Shown here: one piece after another, positions 17,233-34,171 of the stretch
Layout: each line of letters opens with the position of its first letter
Position numbering within the stretch: the stretch's first letter is position 1
Assembly (NCBI RefSeq): GCF_014695385.1
Contig: NZ_JACJOD010000006.1
Location: 434,001-498,000 of the forward strand
Reading direction: 5' to 3'
Length of the DNA stretch: 64,000 nt
Origin: Trichocoleus sp. FACHB-46
GTDB taxonomy: Bacteria > Cyanobacteriota > Cyanobacteriia > FACHB-46
The notes under the pieces: generated by a model
The model's database searches: none
Told to the model about the DNA's origin: nothing
The model's input: the letters and a program-made list of their open reading frames with translations, nothing else
Made by a program: the position numbers and the translations under genes

Positions 17233-18987
17233 CTAGAACACAGACACTTGCTGTGGTCGGTAGTCGGAGCCTGACTTGTTGGCACAAAAACCTAGGTCAA
17301 CGGTTTGATTGGGTTGTAGGACTCTTGCCCAACTCGGCGGTGTGACTTGGTATTGCGAACCTTGGCGGTTGAAATTTCCGTTCCAGCTATTGTTAATGTT
17401 GGCTTGATTCATCCGAAAAGCTAACTGCCAATTCTGCACAGCTTTCTGAGTTGGATTCTGGACTAGGAACCTGACGCAAAAACCACTCGCCCAATCCGAC
17501 TCGATTGTCATCTTAGTTGTGAGTTGATTTTTGGTCGTTTGAGTTTTGTTAGGTGATAAGGACGTAGGTGAGGTGGCAGGCGATCGCAGAGTTGGCCGTG
17601 GAATTGACCCCTGGCTTGCCCCCGCTCGTTGCTGCTTTGCTGGGACAGCCGCACCCGTTGGCCGGAAAGTTGTGAGTGGAGAACGCGCTGTAGGTAAGAG
17701 TTGGCTCAAGAGTTTTTGCTTAGCGTCCTCGATGCTGCGCCAATCATCTTGTAAAACGCCTCCGGTATCCTTGCTATTAGGATTCCAGCTCCAGTAAGTA
17801 AAACTCAGTTGTTTCTGTTTAATAAACTCAACCAACTGTTGTTGCCAAATGCCTTCTTTGGAATTGCTGTCTACCTGCCGTCCCCCAAATTCTCCAATTA
17901 AAACTGGAGCTAGCTTCTGAGTCGCAATGTAGTGAAATCCAGTTTCCCAACGGTTGTAAAGGTTTTTAGGGAAAGTTTTTTCTGAAAACCAGGGTTGGTC
18001 GTAAACTCCAGGGCCATACTCATGAGGGGAGTAAACGAGTTGATCCTTAACTGCTAAGCGAACTGGATAACGTTTCACGCCTTCTAAGTTGCCGCCTTGC
18101 CAGTGCCTGGATAATTTTTGTCCAGGAACATTATTCTCTACTCCCTCAACGACAATCAGCCAATGAGGATTCGTCTTCAAAATGGCATTACCCGCTCGCT
18201 CAGCTGCTAGTCGCCAGTCTGTTGCTGAGTCATTGGTGCCCCAACTCGCTCGACCATGTGGCTCATTTTTTAGGTCAGCTCCAATGACATGAGGCTGATT
18301 CTTGTAACGATTTGCTAACATTTTCCAGGTGTCAATCCAATCAGCTTCGGTAAAGCCATCGCCATACCAAAGTTCTGGAATGCGTTGATCATTCAGTTGA
18401 TGACAGTCCAGTAAAATCAGTAGCCCTTGCTGTCCTGCCTCTTGAATCACGGCGTCCATAATTTCTAGAGGCGATTTACCTTGCAAGGTTTGATTGGCAC
18501 CAATATTGAAGTCAATGCCACTTGCTGCGGCAGAGCGCAAAGCTTCTAGGGAGAAGGGCAGCCGAATGATGTTGTATCCTAATCCTTTGATTTGTGCCAG
18601 CATCTCACGGTAGTCCCGCGTCCAAAGACCGTGAGGGGCATGCAATTCAGTTTCGATGCCAAACCAGTTCACTCCCCGCAATAAAACTGGACGACCGACC
18701 CCATCGACAATTTGGGCTCCTCTGGTGGAGAGAGGGAGCGCGATCGCGGCACTCGCGGCTTCTAAACCTGGGTTGAACTGTAATCCCAAACTGAGACATA
18801 AACCCGCTAAAGCTAAGGACAACCACTGGAGTAAAGACCGCGATCGCCAAATTGGGGTTTGAGCGCCTAAATGAGGACGATTGGGGTTGAGTGATCGTGC
18901 CTGTTTCCAAGCAGGAATTGCTCTTGGGCAATAGCGTCCAAAAGATTTCAAAGCTAGCTGGAACAATTTGCTCATATGTTTAGTCAA
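17233..18987 (-). CDS. secreted endoglucanase: GH5 catalytic domain plus C-terminal CBM2 cellulose-binding module
   Basis: 584 residues. A long basic N-terminus (about 50 residues) precedes a hydrophobic segment ('LLQWLSLALAGLCLSLGLQF'), so it is exported or membrane-anchored. Residues about 90-420 are a GH5 barrel: acid/base Glu in 'KNEPHG' (E242) and nucleophile Glu in 'IGEFGG' (E366). A Pro/Ser/Thr linker follows (about 430-490). The last 95 residues look like a CBM2: paired cysteines near both ends ('GFCVRF', 'GFCANK') and exposed tryptophans ('NNSWNGNF', 'PPSWARV'). It probably cuts beta-1,4-glucan, perhaps the cell's own cellulose given the bcs operon 3 kb away. Start at ATG 18987; ATG at residue 5 is an alternative. 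Confidence 0.88.
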   Translation of the reverse strand: MTKHMSKLFQLALKSFGRYCPRAIPAWKQARSLNPNRPHLGAQTPIWRSRSLLQWLSLALAGLCLSLGLQFNPGLEAASAAIALPLSTRGAQIVDGVGRPVLLRGVNWFGIETELHAPHGLWTRDYREMLAQIKGLGYNIIRLPFSLEALRSAAASGIDFNIGANQTLQGKSPLEIMDAVIQEAGQQGLLILLDCHQLNDQRIPELWYGDGFTEADWIDTWKMLANRYKNQPHVIGADLKNEPHGRASWGTNDSATDWRLAAERAGNAILKTNPHWLIVVEGVENNVPGQKLSRHWQGGNLEGVKRYPVRLAVKDQLVYSPHEYGPGVYDQPWFSEKTFPKNLYNRWETGFHYIATQKLAPVLIGEFGGRQVDSNSKEGIWQQQLVEFIKQKQLSFTYWSWNPNSKDTGGVLQDDWRSIEDAKQKLLSQLLPTARSPLTTFRPTGAAVPAKQQRAGASQGSIPRPTLRSPATSPTSLSPNKTQTTKNQLTTKMTIESDWASGFCVRFLVQNPTQKAVQNWQLAFRMNQANINNSWNGNFNRQGSQYQVTPPSWARVLQPNQTVDLGFCANKSGSDYRPQQVSVF

Positions 18988-19607
18988 TAAATGGTTTAGC
19001 TATGAGCACTCAATGAGATACCCGAAATAACCTCTTAATCGCTTCTTAACTTCTGTTGAGTTAACTAATAGGTTTCATTGGTTTAACTCGATTGACTCCG
19101 CAATAACATGCAACTCGGAAGATTACAGATTTCGACGTTAATTCAAGTCAAAGGTGTCTATTTATTGAAAGATTTACCATTCAACAATCCAGCTTCATCT
19201 AAGCTTCTTGTAGTCCTCAGCCCTTGATAAATATAGCTCTATCCTAAGAGGTACTTACCTTTTAGGGATTATTTGTATGGGCAAAATTAAGAATCTAAGC
19301 TAAGGGATATAACTTACGCAACTTCTATCAACCAAAGCGCTTAAGTAAAAAGTTCACATCTTCTTCATCACCTTCTCTGGGTGTCTTTATCAGCTCTATA
19401 CGAAAGATTACCTAGATACCTATTAGTGTTTATAGAGAAGAGAAATTACTCTATGTGCTGCCTTCTAGAGTGAATTTCCTAGTTACCCACTCAGTCGCTG
19501 TTTTCGATCCTGCCTGACCTAAGAACTAGGGATATTGAAACAGTAGATATACTTTCCGCTACAAAACCAACGACTTTTGAAACCCATATTTGCTTGGAGT
19601 CCCCAAA
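18988..19607. other. 620-bp divergent intergenic region
   Basis: A/T-rich, no convincing ORF and no RNA gene recognised. It must hold the promoters of the minus-strand GH5 gene and the plus-strand gene at 19608. TATACT at about 19547 is a possible -10 for the latter, without a clear -35. Confidence 0.5.
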
Positions 19608-20435
19608 ATGCCTGTATCGTCGCTTAAAAGCTTTTTATTGCCTGCTGTCCTTCTGTCTAGCACGGTGTTTTCCAGCTTGACGTTACCATTAGTTATGTTG
19701 GGTTCACAGCCAATTGATATTCGGGTTCAGCAAGAACCTGTTTTCAGTGGCCAATTGAAAGATGTAGCAGCTCCTTACCTTGGTTTTGCAACGGCGCTGA
19801 GTTTGGGCGCGGGCATCGCTAGCGTAGCTGTAACTGGATGGCGGCGGTCTTCGCGCAAATCGGCTCAAGTTGAAGAACAGCTATCCAGCCTCCAAGAGAA
19901 TTTGCAAGTTAAAGAGAGCCAGTTAGAAGAACTAAAGTTATCCGAAGTTCGCCTAGCTGCTACAGGCCTCTCTGAATTTCTGCATGACAAGCCAGTCCAA
20001 GTGGTCACGGGAACTACGGTAGATTTAGCTCAGCCTGTCGTGATTGCTCCATCAGCTATCCCCACTGCAACTGCTGAAACAGTTACGACCTCGCAGGCTG
20101 CTGTCAAAACTGATCTGTCCCGTCCTGTCTCGGTGCAAGCCGCGGTTTCAGCTCTGCATCCAGCTCAAGCTTTCCTTAGTTTTGCTCAAGCTGGGGCAAC
20201 TACCGAGGAAACAGAGGTACAAGCACCCGTTGCCCATGCCCAAGTTGATGAGTTGCAAACTCAACTCAAGCAAATCATGGCTCAACTGGAAGTGTTGCAA
20301 GGAGCTTTGCACGATGTGCCTCAACTGGATGCTGCTCGTGCTAGCAGCTTCACCAGATTCCATCCCACTATGAGCTATGCTCAGCGCTCCCAAAAGGTAG
20401 AGCCAATCCGTGTTCAACAGAAAGTGGCTTCCTGA
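19608..20435 (+). CDS. membrane-anchored coiled-coil protein of unknown function
   Basis: Not recognised. 275 residues from the ATG at 19608 (an in-frame TTG at 19590 is less likely). The N-terminal 'MPVSSLKSFLLPAVLLSS' region is a signal or membrane anchor, and a second hydrophobic stretch ('YLGFATALSLGAGIASVAV') precedes a basic 'RRSSRK' stop-transfer. A coiled coil follows (about 85-115, 'VEEQLSSLQENLQVKESQLEEL' region), then an Ala/Thr-rich linker, and another short coiled coil ('DELQTQLKQIMAQLEVLQ') near the end. The layout suggests a cell-envelope spacer or scaffold. Proximity to the cellulose operon hints at, but does not prove, a shared role. Confidence 0.75.
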   Translation: MPVSSLKSFLLPAVLLSSTVFSSLTLPLVMLGSQPIDIRVQQEPVFSGQLKDVAAPYLGFATALSLGAGIASVAVTGWRRSSRKSAQVEEQLSSLQENLQVKESQLEELKLSEVRLAATGLSEFLHDKPVQVVTGTTVDLAQPVVIAPSAIPTATAETVTTSQAAVKTDLSRPVSVQAAVSALHPAQAFLSFAQAGATTEETEVQAPVAHAQVDELQTQLKQIMAQLEVLQGALHDVPQLDAARASSFTRFHPTMSYAQRSQKVEPIRVQQKVAS

Positions 20436-20530: not shown

Positions 20531-21319
20531 TTAGCGGAGTAACTGATCAGGTGAGAGAGGAGCAGTAGTTTGGCTTGTATTGGCACTAGCGGTTGGCTTG
20601 GAGTTCGCTGGGGCTGATTTTTCAGGGGTAGCAATCTGCGAGCGATCGCCCCACCCTCCGTTGATGTCTGCTGTCGTCAGGGTGGGAGGAGTGGTTTTCC
20701 CGGTCGGTAAGGGGACGGGTAAAGCTTGACTAATCTGTAGATAACGCTGACCATCAGTAGTGAATCGCGCTAAATTACCTTCTAGTTGAATTCCTTGCTC
20801 TTGTACCTTCTGCTGAATCGTAGGCGGTTGTCCCTCTGGCTCAAACGTTGCTAGAAAGACAACATCAGGGGCGGGAGTCGTTGGAATTTTGAGTTCGGAC
20901 TGGTTAATCTGCCATCCCTCGCGAAATTGGCCATTGGGTGCAACTTGCCAAAGATTGAGGGAGGTCTGCCACTTGCCTTGATTAACCACTACATCTTGCC
21001 GACTTAAGACGGTGTAAGTCAACTGAGATTGAAGTTGTGGTGATAAACCCCCAGTTGCTAAGGGTGCTGTTTGACTGGGAGAGAGGTAGCGGATAGCAGA
21101 GACAGTGATGCGGCTCTGGTCTGGTAAGTTTGTGTTGCCTGAGACGGAATAAACTCCCGATCGCCCAGCAGGTTCTACTTGGAGGTTCAAATTAACCTCA
21201 GGGGGTTTAGCTTGCGAGCAACCAGTGCTAACCAGAAGTAAGCCGCTTAAACAATAGGGTGCCGCTCCATGCCAAATTTGTTTGGCGGGCAAGATGAAAT
21301 GTAGGAATTGACGTTGCAT
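20531..21319 (-). CDS. putative lipoprotein of unknown function
   Basis: 262 residues. A basic start, then hydrophobic 'YCLSGLLLVSTGCSQ' with a lipobox (VSTG-C), so the protein is probably lipid-anchored in the periplasm. The mature part is beta-rich with 'SVSGNTNLPDQSRITVSAIRYL', reminiscent of immunoglobulin-like carbohydrate or surface proteins; the end is Pro/Ser/Thr-rich. No family recognised with confidence. It converges with the coiled-coil gene and is divergent from the bcs operon, with a 440-bp shared upstream region. Confidence 0.78.
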   Translation of the reverse strand: MQRQFLHFILPAKQIWHGAAPYCLSGLLLVSTGCSQAKPPEVNLNLQVEPAGRSGVYSVSGNTNLPDQSRITVSAIRYLSPSQTAPLATGGLSPQLQSQLTYTVLSRQDVVVNQGKWQTSLNLWQVAPNGQFREGWQINQSELKIPTTPAPDVVFLATFEPEGQPPTIQQKVQEQGIQLEGNLARFTTDGQRYLQISQALPVPLPTGKTTPPTLTTADINGGWGDRSQIATPEKSAPANSKPTASANTSQTTAPLSPDQLLR

Positions 21320-21758
21320 GGCGATCGCGAGTAAAAATGGGGCTGTAAACGGAATAACAAATCCTATTAGTTAGTGTGAACTGAATTAGAACAGAATCAA
21401 ATAGTGATTCATGAAGATTTTCTTGATCAGGACAATATTTTAATCTTCTAGTTCTTGTGTAAAAACTTAGTGAATTCACTGGCTTTTTTGACACAATAAC
21501 TTGGAGATATTGTATTTCCTTAAGTTAGATTGCCTGACGCTAATTCAAGTTAGGGTGCTTAGTAAAGAGTTCGATTCTAATAATATTTAGATTGAACGCA
21601 TTCAAACACTAGCGATGTATTTGCATACAAGTAAAACTTTATTGTTCCAATGACCGCCGCTTCTGCTAAAGTTTTCAGCAGTCTAAATGTTTTTCGGTAG
21701 TCTTAGCTTCCATATTCACTAGACCGCATCAGACAGCACAATAGGTGTGAGCCATATC
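21320..21758. other. divergent upstream region of the cellulose operon
   Basis: About 440 bp, A/T-rich, without a supported ORF. It contains the candidate promoter at 21488 and a long leader to the first bcs-cluster gene. No riboswitch could be recognised by eye. Confidence 0.5.
21488..21516 (+). promoter_or_regulatory. candidate promoter of the cellulose operon
   Basis: A consensus -35 TTGACA (21488-21493), 17-bp spacer and TGTATT (21511-21516). It would give a leader of about 235 nt before the barrel gene. Confidence 0.4.
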
Positions 21759-24572
21759 ATGCTTGATTCTCGTTGGTCTATCTTCCGTAGCTATTTACTC
21801 TCGCTTAGAGTCCTAGCATCTGGCTCAATCTCATTGCTTCTTTTCATCGGGCTAACTCAGGTAAAGCCTAGCTGGGCAAACTCTCCCCGTCTGTCGGAAT
21901 CAACGCCTCAACCCAGTTCTCAGAGTCAGGCCCCAGCCACTCAGAGTCCAAGTTCCGAAGCAAAGCTCAGAAATAAAAAGGCCACACCTCAGGCTCGCTC
22001 TACGTTGGCTGCGGCAGCGCTCGCCCCTCTTAAGGCTCCCCAAAACCTGTCTAATACTGAAGCGGATCTAGTCCATCAAATCGCTGGTTCTAGGCCAGAA
22101 GTGCTGGCTAAGCAGGTGGAAACGGCAATGCCCAGCTTCATCGCTCCGCAGCGATCGCCGTCTTTAGGATCTGACGCTACGACTCCATCTAAGTCGGTTA
22201 ACCCGCAGCGATCGCGATCGGTTCAATCTTCATCTGTTACGACTAAAAGCACGACCAAAACCTCTGGGGTTAAACCGTCCCAGACAGCCCCCATCAAGAC
22301 GGCTGACAATTACTGGCAGATGAATGGTGCAGGCTTGGGTGTCCCTGGACAATATAGTCCTGGAATCTGCGCGGGGAACTGTAATGGTTGGCCGCAGCCT
22401 GTAGGGCAGCGTAGCGATCCCAACGGACAACCCCTGCTAGTACCAACCCCCTTGCCTACGGTTCGCCCCGAGACGCCAAGTGCTAGTTTTTCGCCTCAGC
22501 AGCTACCTTGGATGTCTGGAGGGCCTGTAGCGGCTCCCGGTTGGGGAGGCATCAATGGTAATGCTTACCCTTATCCCTATCCGGTCGGGCAACTACCTCC
22601 GGCTCAGCTAGCCCCAATGCCGCCTCCTGGGTGGCATCCTTATGGTTGGAATCCCAATGGTGGTTTCTACCCGATGGGTCAGCCCATGCCTGCTCCCATG
22701 CCAACCTTGATGGTTCCAGGGGCGGGTGGTCCTACTGGACCCGATAGCTCCAATAATATTTATTTCTACAATCGGTACGCTCCTTCGCCACAGCCTACTG
22801 CCGCACCTGTAGCGCCTGTCTCCGTTCCTAATTTAACTGCGCCATTAACGTATCCAAATTTCTATAATGGTGCACCCAATTCCCCAAACAATTTCTATAA
22901 TGGTGCGCCGAATTATCCCGGTAATTTCTATAGTCCAAACCCGGTTTACCCCACTAACACTTATAGCTCTCAAGCTCCTAGTTATCCCAACAATTATCCC
23001 GGTAATATTTACAACAATGTTCCTGGTTATCCCAGTAATTATTCCAACCCTGCTTTAGGGTATCCCGGTAATTCTTATCCGCCTAATTCTTATCCAACTG
23101 CACCTGGGTATCCCAGTAATTCTTATAGTCCTGTACCGAACTATCCCAGTAATTATCCCAACCCTGCTTTAGGGTATCCCGGTAATTCTTATCCGCCTAA
23201 TTCTTACCCACCTAATTCTTATCCAACTGCATTTCCAACTGCCCCGAATTATCCGAGCAATCCATCTAGTCCTGCGCCGAATTATCCCGGCTATGGTGCT
23301 AATCCTACGCCCATGTATCCCGGTAGCGTTTATAACGCTGCACCCAACTACCCTGGAAGTCCATACCCCGGTGCCCCTGCTGCGTCCTACGGTGCTCCTA
23401 GCCCTTATGGTGCTGGGTATCCGACGGGGCAGCCGACCGCTTTTCCGCAGTTCCAAAATACGCCCACACCAACAGCTCCTCAAAGCACAACAGCCCCCCC
23501 AAGCAATTCACCAGGTAATGTAGCCCCTGCTGCTGCTTTAGAAACTCGACCAGAAACTTCCTCTAAGCCACTTTTGCGGAGTACGGCTTTGAGCGAACCT
23601 TCTGTGCAGCTGCAAGGTGTATATCTCTATCAGGCGGATGAATCATCCGCTAGAGCTCGCTTGTCAGCGGCTTATCCTTTAACGCCCAATATTCTGTTTG
23701 GTGGGGCGCTGGATTTGACGACAGGGCAGGGGTTGGTCGATTCGCAGCAAGAGGGGCTGAGTTTGAATGAGTTGTTTGTCGCTACTTCTCCGCGAGATTT
23801 GCCCAACTTGCGGTTTGTTGTAGGGCAATTAGACCTAACCTCTTATTTCGATCGCAACAGTTTTGCCAAGGATGGCGCGAGCCACTTCTTTAACCCAGTG
23901 TTTCAGACTAACTCCGCGCTGACCGCAACTGGGATTGGTTCTCGGCCTGGTGCTTTAGTGAACTGGGCTTTAACTGACAACATCGAAGCTAGATTTGCGG
24001 CGTTTTCCTCGGCGCGGAGCATTGGGGATTTCAGCTTAGATGGCTTTGCAGGCGAACTGGGACTCCGTTACGGCAACGCCATCATTCGCGGTACTTACAG
24101 CACAGGGCGAGAAACTGGAGCAGGCGATGGCTTCCGAGAAATCTTTCAAGTGAATCGAGGGGATGGGTTGAGTGGACCCCAGCGAGGCGATCGCGAGGAA
24201 GGCTTTGGCATCAACGCAGAGGTCTTTATTCCCAGCCTCAACATGGGTTTGTTTGGTCGCTACGGCCAGTACAACAACCGGGGTCTTGACGAACAAGGCA
24301 ACACCTACAACGTCGGACTTACCGTTTTAGATGTATTTGCCCCTGACGATCGCTTGGGCCTAGCCTATGGTCGCCAACTGTCTAATGCGGCTTTACGAAG
24401 ACAGCTGGGCGATCGCAACCCAGATGTTCTGGAACTCTATTACGATTTTCGCTTTTTGCCTAACTTGCGGCTAGGCTTTACCTTACAGGAACTAAATGGT
24501 TTCTCGGAGACGATCGCAGGATTCCGGCTCAAGACCGAATTTGATGTCACACCGAAGGGCAGGCTGCAATGA
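21759..24572 (+). CDS. outer-membrane beta-barrel (OprB-like) with long Pro/Tyr/Asn-rich region; probable cellulose exit channel
   Basis: 937 residues from ATG 21759 (GTG at 21747 also possible). A Sec signal ends near 'VKPSWANS'. Then a Ser/Pro-rich stretch, a Gly/Pro/Trp-rich stretch, and about 190 residues (about 360-547) of imperfect YPxNxYP repeats. Residues about 615-937 form a beta-barrel: alternating strands, with 'VGQLDLTSYFDRNSFAKD' and 'FFNPVF' as in carbohydrate porins of the OprB type. It overlaps the next gene by 4 bp (ATGA), so the two are translationally linked. In place it corresponds to the barrel of BcsC, here a separate protein preceding the TPR protein. Barrel assignment is good; the cellulose role is inferred from the operon. 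Confidence 0.85.
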   Translation: MLDSRWSIFRSYLLSLRVLASGSISLLLFIGLTQVKPSWANSPRLSESTPQPSSQSQAPATQSPSSEAKLRNKKATPQARSTLAAAALAPLKAPQNLSNTEADLVHQIAGSRPEVLAKQVETAMPSFIAPQRSPSLGSDATTPSKSVNPQRSRSVQSSSVTTKSTTKTSGVKPSQTAPIKTADNYWQMNGAGLGVPGQYSPGICAGNCNGWPQPVGQRSDPNGQPLLVPTPLPTVRPETPSASFSPQQLPWMSGGPVAAPGWGGINGNAYPYPYPVGQLPPAQLAPMPPPGWHPYGWNPNGGFYPMGQPMPAPMPTLMVPGAGGPTGPDSSNNIYFYNRYAPSPQPTAAPVAPVSVPNLTAPLTYPNFYNGAPNSPNNFYNGAPNYPGNFYSPNPVYPTNTYSSQAPSYPNNYPGNIYNNVPGYPSNYSNPALGYPGNSYPPNSYPTAPGYPSNSYSPVPNYPSNYPNPALGYPGNSYPPNSYPPNSYPTAFPTAPNYPSNPSSPAPNYPGYGANPTPMYPGSVYNAAPNYPGSPYPGAPAASYGAPSPYGAGYPTGQPTAFPQFQNTPTPTAPQSTTAPPSNSPGNVAPAAALETRPETSSKPLLRSTALSEPSVQLQGVYLYQADESSARARLSAAYPLTPNILFGGALDLTTGQGLVDSQQEGLSLNELFVATSPRDLPNLRFVVGQLDLTSYFDRNSFAKDGASHFFNPVFQTNSALTATGIGSRPGALVNWALTDNIEARFAAFSSARSIGDFSLDGFAGELGLRYGNAIIRGTYSTGRETGAGDGFREIFQVNRGDGLSGPQRGDREEGFGINAEVFIPSLNMGLFGRYGQYNNRGLDEQGNTYNVGLTVLDVFAPDDRLGLAYGRQLSNAALRRQLGDRNPDVLELYYDFRFLPNLRLGFTLQELNGFSETIAGFRLKTEFDVTPKGRLQ
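23028..23206 (+). repeat. recent 114-bp duplication inside the barrel gene's repeat region
   Basis: About 65 bp at 23028-23092 recur at 23142-23206 with one or two mismatches, offset 114 bp (38 codons), so the frame is kept. It sits in a larger stretch (about 22840-23350) of degenerate repeats encoding YPGN/YPSN/YPPN units. Confidence 0.8.
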
Positions 24573-26908
24573 ACCAACGGCATGACACCTGGAAAAACAC
24601 CCGCAAAACAGTGAAGTTTAGGCGATTGGGCTGGTCTTGCTTGCTCGCCGTAGGGTTGAGCGGTGGTTTGATGGTAGACCTGTGGCCCTGGGAAATTCCG
24701 GCGGTGCAAGCGCAGACGGTGCCTGCTTCGGTTCGACAAGCTTATACCCTGCTAAATCGCGGCTTGGTCAATGATGCGATCGCGGCTTTTCAGCGAGCTA
24801 TTCGCAGTTACCCACAATCGATAGAAGCCAAGTTGGGATTGGCGATCGCCTATCGGCGGGCAGGACAAGACGCCAATGCCTTCCAGGCTTATGGGCGCGT
24901 GTTGGAACAAGACCCAAACAACCGTTTGGCGCTCAAAACGTTGGGGTTTCTAGGAGGCTACCGAGCGGAATGGCAAGACCAAGGCATTATTGCTTTAACC
25001 ACCTTGCTGAACTTAGAACCCAACGACCTAGAAGCGCGGGGACAGCGGGCGCTCTTACTGGGCTATCGGGGTCGCTTTGCAGAGTCTTTGGCTGACTACC
25101 AGATTGTTTTACAAAACAATCCCACCCCTGATGTGATTCTAGGGGCGGCGCAAATTTATACTTACACGGGAAATGCTCAGCAAGGGTTAGAGCTGTTCAA
25201 CCGCTACCGAGCTTCCGGCAAAACGATCACCGGGAATGCCGCAGTGGCCTATGCTCGGGCCTTGAGGGAAACGGGCAATCCTGCTCAAGCGATCGCCATT
25301 TTGCAAGCGCAACTACAATCATCCCGCGAGTTAGACGACACGGCGATTCAAGCTCGCTCGGAACTATCTCAAGCTTATTTGGCTAACCAGCAACCTGCTG
25401 AAGCGCTAGCAGTTTTAGATCCACTCCGTGGTCGTCCTGAAGCAGCCTTGCCTTTGGCGAGGGCACTCAATGAGTTAGGGAGCAAAGCCAATGCTCCGAC
25501 CCTGACCCAAGAGGCAGCAGCCCTCTACCGTCAGGAACTCCAGCGCCAAACCAATCCTACGCCGACGTTGGTGCAAGAAGTGGCCGATGTGCTCAGCGGT
25601 ATTCCTGCCGAGCAACCTTATGCGCTGCAACTGTATCGCCAACTGACGCAGCAGCAGCCCAACAATCAAATTTTGGCGCTGAAGCAATTGGCCTTGGAGA
25701 GCCAGTTGGGCGTGATTTCTAGAGCTGAGCTACGGCAACGACTACAAACGGTTTTGCAGCCTTTACCGAGCAATCCAGTAGAGCTACAACAGTTAGCTCA
25801 AGCGCTCTCAGCAGTGGAACCAGAACCAGAACTGTTCCCGGTGTACCAAACGTTGCTGCAAGCGGGCGTCAACGCGCCTTTTCTCAACTTCCGCATCGCC
25901 CAACTCTTGATTCAGCAGAACAATCTGCCAGCGGCGAGAAGTGCCTTGGCTGCCTATGCTAATACATCGGCAGGAGCACAGGACCGAGCTTCGGAACTAC
26001 TTTTGGCTGAGATCGAGCGGCGGGAAGGCAACTTGGAAGCCAGCGCTCAGCGTTATCAAGCAATTCTGGCTAGTAACCCCAGCGATCGCGACATCATCAA
26101 CAATGCCTTGCAAGGCTTGGCAAGTGTGCGTCAAACGCAGGGACGCACCGATGAATCGTTAGCGATTTATAACCAATTAGTTGCCCTGAATCCGCAAAAT
26201 TTGGAAATTCAACTGGGTCGAGCAGCTTTAGCTTATCAGGCTCAACGGATTTCTTTAGCTGAGGCGGAAGCGGTGTTGAATACTTGGCTGCAAACCCGCC
26301 CCCCCACCGACACGCCGCCGGAATTGGTGACTTTGGTGGGAGTGCTACCCCCGGACCCTCGCCGCGAACCGCTTTACAATGCGCTGCTGCAACTGGACCC
26401 GAATAATTCTGCTTTGCAGTTACGCTCGATTCAGGTGATTGCCGCTCGGAGTCCTGCCCAAGCCAGAGCGATCGCCGCCCAATTGGTAGCCCGCAATCCC
26501 AATAATCCGAGTGCGTACCAACTGCAAGGGCAGGTAGCCCAGGCATTAGGAGATTTGGACCAAGCCAGTGATGCCTACCAGCGGCTTTTGCAAATCCAAC
26601 CAAACAATGTTGAAGCACTATCTGCCTTAGGCGGGGTGCGATTCCAGCAACGTCGGTTTGGGGCGGCAGAGCAGTTGTATTCGCAAGTGCTAGCGTTCAA
26701 TCCGACAGATGTGGGGGCACAGCGATCGCTGGCTGAACTGATGGCGGCTCAAGGCATGCCCCTCACCGCTTTGCAGCAACTGGAACAACTTCAGGTACAG
26801 CAAGCGACGACTGGAACCCCGGATAGTAGCTTGTCTCGGAGGGTGCAGCAGATCAAAGAAGACTTGTTGAGACAGCGAGGGTTTCAACCACCGTGGGAGC
26901 GTTACTAA
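24569..26908 (+). CDS. TPR-repeat periplasmic protein, BcsC-like scaffold
   Basis: 779 residues. It has its own Sec signal (basic start, hydrophobic core, 'AVQAQTV' cleavage region near residue 49), so it is not just a frameshifted piece of the barrel gene. The rest is almost all tetratricopeptide repeats, with typical 'ALxxxxxALxxxPxNxxA' spacing, for example 'YGRVLEQDPNNRLALKTLG' and 'YQRLLQIQPNNVEALSALG'. This matches the N-terminal TPR part of BcsC, which bridges BcsB and the outer membrane. No barrel follows. It starts inside the stop of the barrel gene and is followed 7 bp later by the GH8 gene. The product is expected to be periplasmic. Confidence 0.88.
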   Translation: MNQRHDTWKNTRKTVKFRRLGWSCLLAVGLSGGLMVDLWPWEIPAVQAQTVPASVRQAYTLLNRGLVNDAIAAFQRAIRSYPQSIEAKLGLAIAYRRAGQDANAFQAYGRVLEQDPNNRLALKTLGFLGGYRAEWQDQGIIALTTLLNLEPNDLEARGQRALLLGYRGRFAESLADYQIVLQNNPTPDVILGAAQIYTYTGNAQQGLELFNRYRASGKTITGNAAVAYARALRETGNPAQAIAILQAQLQSSRELDDTAIQARSELSQAYLANQQPAEALAVLDPLRGRPEAALPLARALNELGSKANAPTLTQEAAALYRQELQRQTNPTPTLVQEVADVLSGIPAEQPYALQLYRQLTQQQPNNQILALKQLALESQLGVISRAELRQRLQTVLQPLPSNPVELQQLAQALSAVEPEPELFPVYQTLLQAGVNAPFLNFRIAQLLIQQNNLPAARSALAAYANTSAGAQDRASELLLAEIERREGNLEASAQRYQAILASNPSDRDIINNALQGLASVRQTQGRTDESLAIYNQLVALNPQNLEIQLGRAALAYQAQRISLAEAEAVLNTWLQTRPPTDTPPELVTLVGVLPPDPRREPLYNALLQLDPNNSALQLRSIQVIAARSPAQARAIAAQLVARNPNNPSAYQLQGQVAQALGDLDQASDAYQRLLQIQPNNVEALSALGGVRFQQRRFGAAEQLYSQVLAFNPTDVGAQRSLAELMAAQGMPLTALQQLEQLQVQQATTGTPDSSLSRRVQQIKEDLLRQRGFQPPWERY

Positions 26909-26915
26909 CTGCTAA

Positions 26916-28295
26916 ATGGATGGTGTTGTCACCATGCGGTTCAATTTTGTGCGTTTAGCTTTACTACCTTGTGCAGGGCCAGTTGAGATGTTACGGTACC
27001 CCAAAACTAAGCGACAAACAGGCTCGTGGTCATGGTGGCGTAGGGCAGCAGTGGCAGTTAGTCTGAGTGGCATGATGGGACTACTCGGATGTTCTAAATT
27101 TTCTAGCGACGTCAGACAATCTCCACCCGCTACCCCGCCAGCCACTACAGCGCCAACTCCCAGTCCAGACCCGACTGTAATCAGCTCAGCAACAGCAGCG
27201 CCAACTCAACAACTGTTGCAGCAAAGTTGGACCGCCTATCGGCAACGTTTTATTCAAGCGGATGGGCGGGTGATTGACCGGGAAGCAGGCGATCGCTCTA
27301 CGTCCGAAGGGCAAGCCTATGCCATGCTGCGAGCGGTGTTGAGTGATGACCCCAGCACCTTTGCCAAAACCTTGCAGTGGTCAGAAAACAATTTGCAACG
27401 CCAAGCTAATGGCAAACGTACCGACCAGCTCTGGGTTTGGAAGTGGGGCCGTAATGAACAAGGCCCAAATGAACCCGCAAGATGGGGAGCGATCGACCCG
27501 AATTTTGCCAGTGATGCCGATGTCGATGCCATTACCGCTCTGATTTTGGCATCCCGGCGTTGGCAGAAACCAGAGTATTTGAAGTTGGCCCAAGCCAAAT
27601 TGCAAGACTTGTGGCGATTCTCTACCGTGGTCGCTGGTGGGCAGCGCTATTTGCTGCCAGGGCCAGCCGCAGCTTTTCAGCAGCAGACCGTGATTCAACT
27701 GAATCCGTCCTACTTTGCGCCTTATGCGTTTCGGCTCTTTGCTCAAGTCGATCCCAAGCACGATTGGTTGAGCTTGGTGGACAGTAGTTATCAAGCTCTG
27801 GAAAACTCAGCCACGCTATCAGCTGTTGGTTTGCCGAGCGATTGGGTAGCGGTGGACACAACCACAGGAGAATTTCAACCGTTACCGCTCTCTGGGCCGC
27901 TGAAAAGCCAATACAGTTTTGACGCTTACCGCGTCTGGTGGCGGGTCGCTTGGGACGCGGAGTTATTCGACTCCGCACCTGCCAAAGCGTATCTGCAAAA
28001 GCATTTAGGATTTCTGCAAAAACAATGGCGATCGCAACAAAAAATCCCCGCCACTTTTGATCTTTCAGGTGCACCGACCGTGAGTTACGAAGCCACTGCT
28101 CAATATGCCATGTTGTATCCTGCTTGGCGACTGCTCGACCCGGCGATCGCCACCGAGCTTTGGCAGCGAAAGTTGCAGCCCCAGTACCGTAATGGTTTTT
28201 GGGATAACAACTCCGCTTATTATGTGCAAAACCTCGCTTGGTTAGGCTTGCTACCGCCCGACACCATTTCTCCCCAACTGTTGCAACCTCGTTAA
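26916..28295 (+). CDS. bcsZ: GH8 endoglucanase lipoprotein (BcsZ-type)
   Basis: 459 residues from ATG 26916. In-frame ATGs at 26934 and 26988 exist; the last gives the most normal lipoprotein signal, ending in 'GLLGC' (Cys59 in the long form, Cys35 in the short). GH8 signature residues are present: catalytic acid in 'STSEGQAYAM' (E131) and acidic 'SDADVDAI' (D200, D202). BcsZ-type enzymes hydrolyse beta-1,4-glucan and are needed for, or tune, cellulose output. The lipid anchor is unusual, because most BcsZ are soluble periplasmic proteins. It lies between the TPR protein and BcsB (27-bp gap). Confidence 0.9.
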   Translation: MDGVVTMRFNFVRLALLPCAGPVEMLRYPKTKRQTGSWSWWRRAAVAVSLSGMMGLLGCSKFSSDVRQSPPATPPATTAPTPSPDPTVISSATAAPTQQLLQQSWTAYRQRFIQADGRVIDREAGDRSTSEGQAYAMLRAVLSDDPSTFAKTLQWSENNLQRQANGKRTDQLWVWKWGRNEQGPNEPARWGAIDPNFASDADVDAITALILASRRWQKPEYLKLAQAKLQDLWRFSTVVAGGQRYLLPGPAAAFQQQTVIQLNPSYFAPYAFRLFAQVDPKHDWLSLVDSSYQALENSATLSAVGLPSDWVAVDTTTGEFQPLPLSGPLKSQYSFDAYRVWWRVAWDAELFDSAPAKAYLQKHLGFLQKQWRSQQKIPATFDLSGAPTVSYEATAQYAMLYPAWRLLDPAIATELWQRKLQPQYRNGFWDNNSAYYVQNLAWLGLLPPDTISPQLLQPR

Positions 28296-28322
28296 AGCCC
28301 CACCCGCTAAACTTACCCATCC

Positions 28323-30896
28323 ATGCAACGCATCTTCCGGCACTTACTTTCATCTTCCCGCCGCCAGTCTTGCCCAGGGAGCCGCCAACAGCGCCCCGTG
28401 ATCTGGCTTCTGTTACTCACCTTTGCGGGCACAGCGATTGGGGTGACGGCAAGCTTAGCCGTAGCCCAACAGAACGATCGCGATATTACCCAAGACGAAA
28501 ACCAGGTGATCGAGGAGCTGACGCTGCCAGAACCGCCGCCGCAAGCTCCGGTGTACCAGCCTGCACCGGAGCCTGCACCTTACGAACCTGCGCCGGAACC
28601 TGCACCAGAACCCGCACCTGCGGAAGCTCCAGCTCCCAGAGAACCAGCGGCGATTGAACCTGACCCTGAGCCTGCTGCTCCCCCAGCCGCCACTGCACCA
28701 GAACCTGCCAGCTCTCCTACCTCACCAGGAGCCAATCCAAATCCTAGCTCTACCCCCGATGCTGTCGCTGCCCGAGGCCCAACCGTTCCTTACGTCCTAG
28801 AATTCAACCGCAGCCCAGTCGTAGGTAATCGCTTGCGGTTACAAGGGGTGTTTGCCGATGCTCGATTAGGATTTACCCGCCCCCGCACTTGGAATTTGCG
28901 TTCTGCCAAGGTACTGGTGCGGTTCCAACACTCGCCCGCCCTTTTAGCCAACCGTTCTAACTTAACCGTTCGAGTAAATGGAACGAGCGTTGGCAGTGTA
29001 CCGCTGAACCGGAAGCAGTCCGAAATCGGTCAGGTTTTGCTGAATGTGCCGCCCAACTTAATTCAAGACTTTAATGAAGTGACGCTGGTGGCACAGCAGA
29101 ACAACTCAGCGACCTGTACTGATCCTGCCGACCCCACCTTATGGACGGAAGTCTTACCTGATTCCAAGCTGATCTTTAACTATCAGCCCAAACCCGTCAA
29201 ACTCGACTTTACCCGATACCCCTATCCTTTCTTCGACGACCTCAGCCTGGACCCGAATCGAGTCACTTATCTGTTACCCAACCAAGTCAATAGTGCTTGG
29301 TTGACCTCGGCGGCTCGCTTCCAGGCCGCGCTAGGACGCTTGGCAGAGTTTCGACCGCTAGAAACTCGGTTGGTGAAAAACCTCAATCAGGCAAAAGCAG
29401 ACGAGCGCTTGGTGGTGATTGGTACCCCTGAGGAGCAACCGGCGCTGAAGTCGCTCAAGTTGCCCCTGGCGATCGCTGACAACCAAGTGCTAGACGCTAG
29501 CCGCAACCCATTGCCAGCGGAGTCAGGCATTTTGATGCTGGCCACCACCCGCAACAATGGCATTCCGGTTTTGATTGCCACAGGGAATGGTCCAGAAGGC
29601 GTTAACAAAGCGGTGCAGTTTTTGGTGCAGTCGAAGGACCGCCAGATTGGTACAGGTTATTACCTAGTTGTGAATAGCGTTACCCCAGTGCCCACACCGC
29701 CTCTGAGGCAATGGCCCGGTTATTTGCCCGAGAAAAACTCCTTCAAACTGCGTGAGCTCAATAACGCTGAGAACGAACCTTTTGAAGATGTTACGGTGCG
29801 GGGTGCTTATGCGCCGCCTGTAGAAGTAAATTTCCGAGCCTTGCCAGATGACCAGTTCACTCGTGGCAGCTCGATGAACTTGGTGTATAGCTACGGCCCG
29901 CAGGTGAACCCTCGACTCTCGACGGTGGAAGTACGACTCGATGGTGCCCCAATTGGCGGTAAGCGCCTGACCTCCGAGCAGGGAGCAGCTAGGGATACGT
30001 TAAATGTCAATCTCCCAGCTGAGTTAGTCAAACCGGATTCCAAAATTCAGGTGGCCTTCAACCTCAGCCCGCGTGAACCTGCTAACTGTGGCCGAATCAA
30101 TGACCAGCAACTCTGGGGGAAAGTCCATGCTGACACCAACTTCAAACTCAAGCGCCAAAATGTCGTCCAAATTCCTGACCTGAAGTTGCTGGCTACGGGG
30201 TATCCCTTTGCTGCGCCTCAAGACCTCTCCACGACAGCAATCGTGGTTCCAGAAACACCATCCGTCACCGACTTGAGCACATTGTTAGAGTTTAGTGAGC
30301 GCTTAGGTCGCCTCAGCCAAGCCGACACGGTGAAAATAGAGGCTTACACCCAAGACGCTCTCACGACAGAAGTGAAGCAACGACAAAACTTAGTCGGAAT
30401 TGGTGTGCGATCGCAGTTCCCCTTCCCCGAAGCATTCCAAGAAAATGGCTTTGCTCTAAAAAATGTGTTTTCTCGCAAATGGAATCAAAGCCAGATTCAA
30501 GCCTTGCCAGATTCGGAAGGGGTGATCAAAGAAGTGATTTCTCCTTGGAACGACGATCGCGTCCTGCTGGCTTTGAGCGCACAAACAGAGACAGGCTTAC
30601 AGCAAGTGCAAAATTTGCTGAACCAAGACCCATTGTTCTTCCAGCTCAATGGCGATACGGTGCTGATTAGTGCCAATCAAGCAAGTGCTTCGGGCTACGA
30701 TCCAGATGCTTACAATTTGGAGTTTCTCCAGCAAAGTTCTCAGCGACGGCTGGACAACAGCAATCCTTTCAGTAAAGTTTCGCGCTTCTTGCAAGACCAT
30801 TGGTTCGTGCTGCCGACGGGGATCGTTGTATTTGCTTTGGGTCTCTACGGTATCACTCAGCTCTATCTCAAGCGTGTAGAAAAGCAGGATAAATAA
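28323..30896 (+). CDS. bcsB: cellulose synthase periplasmic subunit BcsB
   Basis: 857 residues. An N-terminal membrane signal ('VIWLLLLTFAGTAIGVTASLA') is followed by a Pro/Glu/Ala-rich stretch (about 60-140) not found in typical BcsB and possibly a spacer through the periplasm. The body has the two repeated jelly-roll plus flavodoxin-like units of the BcsB family, with family-like 'VRVNGTSVGSVPLNR' and 'EVRLDGAPIGGKRL'. A C-terminal membrane helix ('FVLPTGIVVFALGLYGITQLYL') anchors it beside BcsA, as in the known BcsA-BcsB complex. It abuts bcsA with no gap (TAA-ATG), which indicates coupled expression. Confidence 0.94.
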   Translation: MQRIFRHLLSSSRRQSCPGSRQQRPVIWLLLLTFAGTAIGVTASLAVAQQNDRDITQDENQVIEELTLPEPPPQAPVYQPAPEPAPYEPAPEPAPEPAPAEAPAPREPAAIEPDPEPAAPPAATAPEPASSPTSPGANPNPSSTPDAVAARGPTVPYVLEFNRSPVVGNRLRLQGVFADARLGFTRPRTWNLRSAKVLVRFQHSPALLANRSNLTVRVNGTSVGSVPLNRKQSEIGQVLLNVPPNLIQDFNEVTLVAQQNNSATCTDPADPTLWTEVLPDSKLIFNYQPKPVKLDFTRYPYPFFDDLSLDPNRVTYLLPNQVNSAWLTSAARFQAALGRLAEFRPLETRLVKNLNQAKADERLVVIGTPEEQPALKSLKLPLAIADNQVLDASRNPLPAESGILMLATTRNNGIPVLIATGNGPEGVNKAVQFLVQSKDRQIGTGYYLVVNSVTPVPTPPLRQWPGYLPEKNSFKLRELNNAENEPFEDVTVRGAYAPPVEVNFRALPDDQFTRGSSMNLVYSYGPQVNPRLSTVEVRLDGAPIGGKRLTSEQGAARDTLNVNLPAELVKPDSKIQVAFNLSPREPANCGRINDQQLWGKVHADTNFKLKRQNVVQIPDLKLLATGYPFAAPQDLSTTAIVVPETPSVTDLSTLLEFSERLGRLSQADTVKIEAYTQDALTTEVKQRQNLVGIGVRSQFPFPEAFQENGFALKNVFSRKWNQSQIQALPDSEGVIKEVISPWNDDRVLLALSAQTETGLQQVQNLLNQDPLFFQLNGDTVLISANQASASGYDPDAYNLEFLQQSSQRRLDNSNPFSKVSRFLQDHWFVLPTGIVVFALGLYGITQLYLKRVEKQDK

Positions 30897-33488
30897 ATGG
30901 CCAATCCCTCTCCCCCGTTACGGCCAGATCCACCGCCCCTAGCGACTGGAGCGACAAGGCGATCGCCTCTAGACACATTAACCGATTGGTTAGTGAACCT
31001 AGTTCCCAGTTGGTTCGATCGCGCCTTGCAATCGCTTAACCGCCGCCAACTTTGGTTGTTAGCTTTACTCGTGCTCGTGCTCTCCTTGCCCTTGGTGACT
31101 ACACCGCTGAAAGTTTGGCAGCAAGGCGTGATTGCAGGGCTACTGGTTCTGATGGGTTGGTTGATTGTACGCATTGAGCAGCAACGCAACAACCCGCAAA
31201 CTAGCGAATATCTGCATTTGTTCTTGGTGTGGCTCAGTACAGTGACGACGGCTCGCTACCTGTACTATCGCACCGCTTACACTTTCAATTTTGACGGTTG
31301 GCTCAACGGCTTTTTTTGCATCCTCCTGTACGGGGCAGAGCTATACGCGATCATCACCCTGTTTTTGGCTTACTTCCAAACTCTGAAAATCAGAGAACGC
31401 CAACCCATTGACCTCTCTACTATTCCTAGCGATCGCTTGTTTAAGGTGGATGTTTATATTCCCACCTACAACGAAGATGTAGAGATTGTCCGCAAAACGG
31501 TTTTGGGAGCTTTAGCGATCGATTATCCTGCTGACAAAAAGCGGGTCTATATCTTAGATGATGGTCGAGCTGAGAAATATAAGGATAGACGAGAGTCTCT
31601 CCGCCAGATGTGTGAGGAACTTGGCTGCACCTTGCTGACTCGTGACAACAACGACCATGCCAAGGCAGGCAACATTAACACGGCCTTTAAGCGTACTGAT
31701 GGCGACTTGGTCTTGATTTTGGACTGTGACCACATTCCTGCTCGACCTATTCTCCAAACAACGGTGGGCTTCTTTTATGATTCCAAGGTGGCATTTGTCC
31801 AGACGCCGCACTGGTTCTATAACCCAGACCCGTTTGAGCGCAACTTGCTGACTCGCGGCAAAGTGCCCGTAGGCAACGAACTCTTTTATAAAGTGCTGCA
31901 AAAAGGGAATGACTTTTGGAATGCAGCCTTTTTCTGCGGTTCGGCGGCGGTGATTCGCAAAGACTATGCCCTGCAAATTGGCGGAATTGCCACAGAAACA
32001 GTCACGGAAGACTGCCACACCGCTTTCCGGCTCCACTCCTTGGGCTATAAGTCGGTGTACTACGACCAAATCATGGTGGCAGGTTTAGCCCCAGAGAAGT
32101 TCTCTTCTTACATTGGTCAGCAAGTGCGCTGGGCTAGAGGCATGGCCCAGATTTTGCGCCTAGAAAATCCTCTGCTCAACCGCAAGCTCAACCTGACTAT
32201 TCCGCAGCGGATTTGCTATTTTTCGGCGACTTCGCACTTCTTCTTTGGCTTTCCGCGTTTGATGTACGCGATCGCTCCCACCCTTTTCCTGCTATTTGGC
32301 ATCAATCCGATCCGGGGTTTAGGGCTTGAGACCTTAGCCTACGCCCTGCCACATATTCTCTTGTCGATGTACGCCAACTTCATCACCTACAAGAATGTGC
32401 GGTTCTCGTTCTGGAATGAGATTTACGAATTCGCCATGTCGTTCTACGCCGGAGCCGTGACTCTGATGGCGTTGATCAATCCTAGAATGGGGTCTTTCAA
32501 CGTTACCGACAAAGGGTTATCCGTCACCAAACGAGACTTTGATTGGGAATCCGCCCGTCCCTTGGTAGTAGTGGCGGTTCTGGTTGCTCTGTCGGTGCTA
32601 TCCGTGCCCTTCTGGTTGATTCTGCGGCCAGAAGATAGCGAAGCTGTGTTGGTGAACATGCTGTGGGGCATCTTCAACCTAGTGTTGATTGTGGCGGCAA
32701 TCCTGGTTTCATTTGAACAGCCGCAATTACGACGAACCCACCGCCTCAACCGCAAACTAACCGCAGTCATTTATGGCCCCGACCAAACCTGGAGAGGCAA
32801 AACTGAAGATGTCAGTGAGTCCGGGGCTAGAATTGTGCTCGATTCTTGGCCAAACTTACCAGACGAGATCGAGTTAGAACTCGTGGGTGACTATGGAGCC
32901 CGAGCGTTTCTCAAGGCGCGGATTGTGCGAGGAGTGCCGCTGAATGATGCCCAAACCATTTTAGTCGCTGACTTTATTAACCCTACCCAGTCAGAACTGG
33001 ATGCCTTAGCGATCGTGCTCTACTCGGATGTGCGCGAGTGGTATTCCCAAAATCGTACCGAAGTAGATGACCCCCTGGATTCTCTCCGCTTTATTGCGAC
33101 CAGCTTGACTCGCTCTTTCCAAGAAGCCAAGCCCATTCAGGGGCAAAAGGTGCGCAAGCGCATTCAAACTCCCGCCCAGTTATATTGGGAAGGCCATTTT
33201 TATACGGCTATGGCGACTGAGATGGGAGTTCGCAGCCTGCGGCTAGAATTTCACGAACCAATTGATGCTTTAGAGCAACTTCGGCAAAGCCAGCCCGTCG
33301 TCGGCGTGTTGCTAGAGGATGGTCATCCTTTACCCAAGCGTTTGTTGGCAGTAGTGCAAACAATAGAGCCATTAGCCAATTCTGGTAATGGAGATGCAGC
33401 ATCAAGTACCGCGATCGAATTGCGCTTCCCAGAGCAATTGCAAGAACGCCAGGAAGGTCGAATCAAGCAACTTTTGGCAACGCTCTAG
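30897..33488 (+). CDS. bcsA: cellulose synthase catalytic subunit with PilZ domain, BcsA
   Basis: 863 residues. N-terminal membrane helices, then a GT2 domain: 'DVYIPTYNED', 'ILDDGRA', DCD (D276, D278), TED (T370-D372) and QQVRW (408-412), all needed for processive beta-1,4-glucan synthesis from UDP-glucose. More membrane helices follow, forming the translocation channel. The PilZ domain has RRTHR (612-616) and DVSESG (638-643), the c-di-GMP binding motif, so activation by c-di-GMP is expected. After it, residues 753-863 form an extra domain not found in the classical proteins (see findings). Last gene of the operon; a hairpin follows. The complete motif set makes it a real cellulose synthase rather than a generic GT2. 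Confidence 0.96.
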   Translation: MANPSPPLRPDPPPLATGATRRSPLDTLTDWLVNLVPSWFDRALQSLNRRQLWLLALLVLVLSLPLVTTPLKVWQQGVIAGLLVLMGWLIVRIEQQRNNPQTSEYLHLFLVWLSTVTTARYLYYRTAYTFNFDGWLNGFFCILLYGAELYAIITLFLAYFQTLKIRERQPIDLSTIPSDRLFKVDVYIPTYNEDVEIVRKTVLGALAIDYPADKKRVYILDDGRAEKYKDRRESLRQMCEELGCTLLTRDNNDHAKAGNINTAFKRTDGDLVLILDCDHIPARPILQTTVGFFYDSKVAFVQTPHWFYNPDPFERNLLTRGKVPVGNELFYKVLQKGNDFWNAAFFCGSAAVIRKDYALQIGGIATETVTEDCHTAFRLHSLGYKSVYYDQIMVAGLAPEKFSSYIGQQVRWARGMAQILRLENPLLNRKLNLTIPQRICYFSATSHFFFGFPRLMYAIAPTLFLLFGINPIRGLGLETLAYALPHILLSMYANFITYKNVRFSFWNEIYEFAMSFYAGAVTLMALINPRMGSFNVTDKGLSVTKRDFDWESARPLVVVAVLVALSVLSVPFWLILRPEDSEAVLVNMLWGIFNLVLIVAAILVSFEQPQLRRTHRLNRKLTAVIYGPDQTWRGKTEDVSESGARIVLDSWPNLPDEIELELVGDYGARAFLKARIVRGVPLNDAQTILVADFINPTQSELDALAIVLYSDVREWYSQNRTEVDDPLDSLRFIATSLTRSFQEAKPIQGQKVRKRIQTPAQLYWEGHFYTAMATEMGVRSLRLEFHEPIDALEQLRQSQPVVGVLLEDGHPLPKRLLAVVQTIEPLANSGNGDAASSTAIELRFPEQLQERQEGRIKQLLATL

Positions 33489-33658: not shown

Positions 33659-34171
33659 ATGACGGGGAGAATTAAGGTGATTTTGTCTAGTCAGCAAAAC
33701 GAGCAGAGCAGCCGGAATCCACTGGCCGCATTACTCAGACAAGCAAAATTTTTAAGTGTGGCGATCGCGCTGAGCTTGGCCGTTTTCCTCTGGGGGTGCG
33801 ACGACCTGACTGCCGCCAATCTTCCAACACCACCGGAAACGGTTGCCTTTGAGCAAAGCTTAGCTCAGCACCTCCAGCAGACAGGAGCCAAAATGTATGG
33901 CGCTTACTGGTGCCCTCATTGTGCTGATCAAAAAGCTTTGTTTGGGCCTGCCGTGGCTACAGTGCCTTATGTAGAATGTGACCCAAAAGGCGAAAAACCC
34001 CAGCCAGACTTGTGTCAAGCCAAACAGATTGAAGGTTATCCTACCTGGGAGATTGGCGATCGTCTTTATTCGGGTACGCGATCGCTCTTAGAACTCGCTG
34101 CCTTATCAGGTTACAAAGCCCCATCTGTCAATAACCCAAGTGCAGAAGTCAGTTCTCAAACTTCCCCTTGA
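33659..34171 (+). CDS. thioredoxin-like lipoprotein, related to the Trx domain of VKOR fusions
   Basis: 170 residues. 'AVFLWGC' (Cys47) is a lipobox after a basic N-terminus, so the protein should be anchored on the periplasmic or lumenal side. The redox motif YWCPHC (Cys85, Cys88) is followed by 'ALFGPAV', 'YVEC' (Cys107), Cys119 and 'IEGYPTWEI', the layout of the thioredoxin domain that cyanobacterial vitamin K epoxide reductase (VKOR) proteins carry at the C-terminus. It is therefore likely to be a thiol-disulfide oxidoreductase, working alone or with a separate VKOR. No VKOR membrane part is present nearby. It is followed by a CsoR-type regulator 54 bp downstream. Confidence 0.85.
   Translation: MTGRIKVILSSQQNEQSSRNPLAALLRQAKFLSVAIALSLAVFLWGCDDLTAANLPTPPETVAFEQSLAQHLQQTGAKMYGAYWCPHCADQKALFGPAVATVPYVECDPKGEKPQPDLCQAKQIEGYPTWEIGDRLYSGTRSLLELAALSGYKAPSVNNPSAEVSSQTSP

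Follow-up and report, generated by a model that had tools for sequence, protein, structure and literature searches.

How a cyanobacterium could release cellulose through its outer membrane is the question raised by a gene cluster of Trichocoleus sp. FACHB-46. A 2025 review describes cyanobacterial cellulose operons without bcsB and a secretion mechanism that is poorly defined (PMC12430437), and a 2015 survey of the phylum recorded BcsB in few strains and the BcsC barrel in none (PMC4594306). The cluster lies in a stretch of 64,000 nucleotides (contig NZ_JACJOD010000006.1, positions 434,001 to 498,000 of the forward strand; hereafter the window), to which coordinates refer unless another locus is named. 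An earlier note on this DNA read the cluster as a five-gene cellulose synthase operon in which BcsC is split into two exported proteins in reversed order.

The operon encodes a Bcs-type synthase core and two further exported proteins

Reading of the open reading frames places five co-directional, open genes at 21747-33488, in the order barrel, TPR, GH8 (BcsZ), BcsB and BcsA; the successive junctions measure -4, +7, +27 and 0 bp. This bears out the five-gene operon of the earlier note. The first gene (21747..24572, + strand) encodes an outer-membrane barrel protein of 941 aa, composed of a signal peptide, an extension and a C-terminal OprB-type barrel; it starts with GTG at 21747, the ATG at 21759 being the start chosen in the earlier note. 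A 4-bp ATGA overlap joins it to the gene for a 779-aa periplasmic TPR scaffold (24569..26908, +). The BcsZ-type GH8 endoglucanase (26916..28295, +), whose N terminus shows a lipobox-like LLGC, follows after 7 bp, BcsB with its C-terminal membrane anchor (28323..30896, +) after a further 27 bp, and the cellulose synthase BcsA with its PilZ domain (30897..33488, +) without any gap. Inspection of the sequence reveals one signal-peptide-like segment at the N terminus of the barrel protein and another on the TPR protein, as the earlier note had claimed.

Pfam and NCBIfam identify the four proteins after the barrel protein unambiguously. BcsA scores 717 bits against the NCBIfam model CelA (TIGR03030), above the curated cut-off of 699.1, and its PilZ domain scores 43 bits in the Pfam search. 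In the same database, BcsB matches PF03170 at 347 bits and the GH8 protein matches Glyco_hydro_8 (PF01270) at 140 bits; the best NCBIfam match of the latter is BcsZ, at a score under the BcsZ equivalog cut-off. Identity to the E. coli K-12 proteins is 38% for BcsA and 23% for BcsB over the aligned parts, and 32% over 259 aligned residues between the GH8 protein and BcsZ. Judged by the family membership of BcsA, BcsB and the GH8 protein, the core is a Bcs-type cellulose synthase, and its product would be cellulose.

Two genes upstream of the operon also recur. A divergent gene (20531..21319, -) encodes a predicted lipoprotein and is found upstream in 27/43 and 54/66 loci, and a second (19590..20435, +) encodes a protein that combines a hydrophobic segment with a coiled-coil-like stretch and is found in 22/43 and 42/66 loci, where both counts (n=43 and n=66) refer to loci with enough upstream sequence; neither protein has a convincing Pfam match. 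A secreted GH5 cellulase with a CBM2 module, assigned by Pfam, lies further upstream (17233..18987, -) and is matched in 11 of the 80 loci compared, whose length is limited. Just downstream of bcsA, window 33659-34171 encodes a small thioredoxin-like protein, which adjoins the operon only in two same-genus genomes.

The barrel is an OprB-family porin

The full-length 941-aa barrel protein gives no Pfam match at E 0.1, because about 600 of its residues form a Pro/Ser/Ala-rich low-complexity extension, which in the window is also rich in Tyr and Asn. Searched alone, the barrel domain (aa 591-941; 23517..24569, +) matches OprB (PF04966) at 33.3 bits, over a cut-off of 22.9; in a genome-wide profile search, the protein scores 27.7 bits against OprB. 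At E up to 1, Pfam OprB is matched by 33 of 63 members of the barrel family and BCSC_C (PF05420) by none of them (0/63), and Alginate_exp (PF13372) is absent among the Pfam matches of all 63.

The structural model of the barrel domain, built from an alignment of 51 cyanobacterial rows, has 16 long strands (pLDDT 87, pTM 0.82). The barrel itself occupies the last ~325 residues of the protein, and the first ~25 residues of aa 591-941 are disordered. The top solved fold is Pseudomonas putida OprB (4GEY), ranked first by two aligners, with a Foldseek E value of 5e-13 and a Z score of 27.2 over 297 residues, compared with 23.1 for the runner-up. The BcsC barrel is not among the 50 fold matches listed, which does not exclude a similarity to it, and a search of PDB sequences with the barrel profile returned no match. 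The barrel is an OprB-family porin and not a detectable piece of BcsC, and the part of the earlier note that made it one half of BcsC is not supported by the Pfam matches and the best solved fold.

The most conserved stretch of the family is the strand 5-6 segment, LTSYFDRNSFAKDG..FFNPVFQTN.AL (23835..23939, +), in which 23 of 35 positions are kept in at least 90% of members, compared with 73 of 283 elsewhere. Its position would make it the third extracellular loop. In porins, this loop usually folds into the pore, and the segment may likewise constrict the pore of the Trichocoleus barrel.

Sugar uptake is the known role of OprB porins. The barrel shares its Pfam family with P. putida OprB, its closest solved fold, but the latter serves sugar uptake and has no tie to a synthase or TPR gene, and the Trichocoleus protein adds the Pro-rich extension. 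The Trichocoleus genome holds six further OprB matches, two of which were inspected; both have the SLH-like N-terminal region of the cyanobacterial SLH-OprB porins, which belong to the same Pfam family, whereas the barrel protein of the operon has its low-complexity extension instead. Pro/Ala/Ser richness of the extension is general among barrel relatives. Within the extension, window 22995-23225 contains lineage-specific Tyr/Asn/Pro-rich tandem repeats with 114-bp and 15-bp units. A role of the Tyr-rich repeats as a conserved glucan guide was considered and rejected, as many relatives have few or no Tyr residues.

The TPR protein is a predicted solenoid with a conserved C-terminal tail

The second protein carries TPR repeats by Pfam search, and its model is all-helical, a solenoid that spans residue 53 to about residue 748. 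E. coli BcsC has 19 TPR repeats (PMC11379886), and the modeled solenoid would be about as long as that of BcsC. A fold search with the model returned generic TPR solenoids only, with no specific relative, and comparison with the BcsC TPR region gave only a local generic match. No lipobox was seen in the protein.

Conservation in the TPR protein is highest in the N-terminal repeats; in E. coli, BcsC TPR#1 binds BcsB (PMC11379886). The C-terminal tail, RGFQPxWERY (26876..26905, +), is conserved as well, with the variant RG[FY]QPxWE[RK] present in 59 of 73 TPR homologues and QPxW in 69 of 73. In BcsC, the glucan-stacking residue Trp766 sits at the start of the linker leading to the barrel (PMC11379886). 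By analogy, the tail Trp may act in a role like that of Trp766, and we propose that the tail contacts the barrel or the glucan.

Barrel, TPR and BcsB genes recur together across cyanobacteria

Of 390 cyanobacterial genomes, 126 have BcsB; by genus, the count is 57 of 160 sampled. Strong BcsB matches occur in 107 of the genomes and strong barrel matches in 111: 105 genomes have both, 2 BcsB only, 6 the barrel only and 277 neither, and several of the 8 genomes with one strong match alone are incomplete assemblies. The order barrel-TPR-(GH8)-BcsB is found in 67 of 80 BcsB-centred loci, the 13 others being mostly cut by contig ends or second copies, and the barrel/TPR overlap is exactly 4 bp in 27 of the 67 ordered loci. 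With the order recurring in this many loci, as the earlier note had suggested checking, the operon observation is far beyond chance. GH8 is absent from 20 of the 80 BcsB loci, where the barrel is retained.

The earlier note had named loss of barrel-TPR adjacency in related genomes as grounds for giving up its reading. Among 90 loci with a barrel gene, almost all retrieved by barrel sequence, 86 have the TPR gene directly after it, so this check does not refute that reading; the four exceptions comprise three contig ends and one MAG (L166). In that MAG, of Nostoc indistinguendum, BcsB forms an in-frame fusion with a TPR remnant (L166:10993-13632), reflecting either a real deletion or an assembly error. 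No fused barrel-TPR form occurs among the BcsB and barrel loci examined.

All 80 named loci returned are cyanobacterial, and in a phylum-wide sample matches occur solely in the same class. Against the BcsC barrel model, the Trichocoleus genome gives no match, and among 291 cyanobacteria only 5 give matches, all of them marginal and partial. At least four second-copy bcs operons depart from the pattern, with the barrel missing in L059, L064 and L075 and the whole exit pair missing in L039; the genomes concerned retain one barrel elsewhere. The barrel-TPR arrangement is widespread and standard in BcsB-bearing cyanobacteria rather than a local oddity.

A pair of another kind was seen at L231:9013-13291, where the next gene after that for a divergent BcsB-like protein encodes a GT2 glycosyltransferase that has MshEN in place of PilZ. 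BcsB-like matches of this kind also occur in other cyanobacteria (L232, L233 and L234), and the pair may form a separate synthase system linked to c-di-GMP.

The barrel and TPR genes move and diverge together

In one genus, a second system consists of bcsB-bcsA alone (L053, L062). In three genomes of this genus, barrel-TPR-GH8 (L191, L193, L194) lies about 28 kb from bcsB-bcsA; a fourth genome (L192) has barrel-TPR on a different contig. The exit genes thus move together.

Consistent with a chain barrel-TPR-BcsB-BcsA, the partial correlation of divergence across 61 loci is 0.55 for barrel-TPR given BcsA/BcsB (bootstrap 0.44-0.64) and 0.49 for BcsB-BcsA, and it is 0.13 for barrel-BcsB (-0.06-0.33) and -0.02 for barrel-BcsA; gene adjacency rather than contact may contribute to this pattern. 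For barrel-GH8, the partial correlation is about zero.

Relation to known export systems

The homologous BcsA, BcsB and BcsZ, the PilZ control, the combination of a TPR solenoid with a 16-strand pore and the exact mirror order are shared with the Bcs system of E. coli. The Trichocoleus system differs in that its exit is two proteins, with an OprB-family barrel rather than BCSC_C, in the long disordered N-terminal extension of the barrel protein and in the absence of bcsEFGQR. Of the split BcsC in the earlier note, the two separately exported proteins stand, but the view of the barrel as a part of BcsC is not supported (BCSC_C 0/63). Likewise, the barrel does precede the TPR gene, but this reversal is not special to BcsC: the barrel comes before the TPR gene because the whole operon is a mirror image of E. 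coli bcsA-bcsB-bcsZ-bcsC.

In alginate export, TPR scaffold and barrel are separate proteins too, AlgK and AlgE (PMC9734138), but the synthase is Alg8/Alg44, the barrel is of another family, and AlgK is an outer-membrane lipoprotein, whereas the Trichocoleus TPR protein lacks a lipobox. By the tests made, the exit is a member of neither system; it would function like BcsC and is organised like AlgK/AlgE. The XcsAB-TolC model for Thermosynechococcus cellulose (PMC12430437) also concerns cyanobacterial cellulose export. Unlike that system, the Trichocoleus operon has a true BcsB and no HlyD adaptor or TolC: Pfam finds no HlyD domain in the nine proteins of the region, and a TolC gene is likewise absent from the operon. 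The distinctness from both one-piece BcsC and HlyD/TolC export that the earlier note had proposed thus holds, the exit being encoded by two genes.

A proposed exit route and its alternatives

From the observed gene content, families, fold, conservation, co-occurrence and relocation of the exit genes, we infer that the operon quite likely encodes a Bcs-type cellulose synthase with an OprB-type porin as its outer-membrane exit and a separate TPR solenoid on which that porin is docked. In the proposed mechanism, BcsA-BcsB would make the glucan under c-di-GMP control, BcsB would pass on the chain, and BcsZ would trim it. As for contacts, the N-terminal repeats of the TPR protein would most likely dock on BcsB, by analogy with BcsC TPR#1 of E. 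coli; the C-terminal end, which carries the RGFQPxWERY tail, would meet the periplasmic face of the OprB-family 16-strand porin. The chain would then follow the TPR solenoid and pass the conserved third loop as it exits the porin, so that cellulose, the presumed product, would be secreted. The exit pore is probably a recruit from the OprB family of sugar-uptake porins, paired with a separate TPR scaffold, an arrangement that would be standard in BcsB-bearing cyanobacteria. Several points weigh against this route: OprB porins otherwise serve sugar uptake, constriction by the loop might leave the pore too small for a glucan chain to pass, the divergence correlations may stem from gene adjacency, and the barrel or the whole exit pair is missing from at least four second-copy operons.

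The main rival to the exit reading is that the barrel imports cello-oligosaccharides released by the GH8/GH5 cellulases, cellulose leaving elsewhere, for example through TolC. In its favour, the solved OprB is a porin for sugars, cellulases are encoded nearby, and XcsAB-TolC is the published cyanobacterial model (PMC12430437). However, the barrel goes with the TPR gene rather than with GH8, staying in the 20/80 loci without GH8 and having a partial correlation of about zero with it, and the operon contains no HlyD, TolC or other outer-membrane exit candidate; we therefore regard uptake as quite unlikely. It is very improbable that the TPR and barrel genes arose from a broken ancestral bcsC, with a diverged BcsC barrel. 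Such an origin would account for the same functional slots, the 16 strands, the similar solenoid length and the mirror-image order, but it is at odds with the Pfam matches to OprB in 33 of the 63 family members and to BCSC_C in none, with the lead of 4GEY over all other folds and with the lack of any barrel-TPR fusion among the loci examined. The barrel profile was also negative against E. coli BcsC, but an ordinary OprB porin from cyanobacteria, used as the control, gave no match either, so this result carries little weight.

A further alternative concerns the polymer, which might be another beta-glucan or a modified cellulose instead of plain cellulose. The product assignment rests on sequence, and the recurrent lipoprotein and the second conserved neighbour could act on the polymer. 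We consider this unlikely, since BcsA scores higher than the curated CelA cut-off and shares 38% identity with its E. coli counterpart, and since a BcsZ-type GH8 protein and BcsB accompany it.

Our search, which covered open-access literature, turned up no description of a two-protein OprB-type cellulose exit. In contrast to the review and the survey cited above, BcsB is present in more than a third of the sampled genera (57/160), and the missing outer-membrane part gains a concrete candidate. If the proposed OprB-TPR exit is correct, polysaccharide exit pores would be swappable between barrel families with the TPR link retained, and the exit module would be an engineering target for cellulose secretion in phototrophs. 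The two-protein exit thus offers a testable answer to how cyanobacteria could release cellulose.
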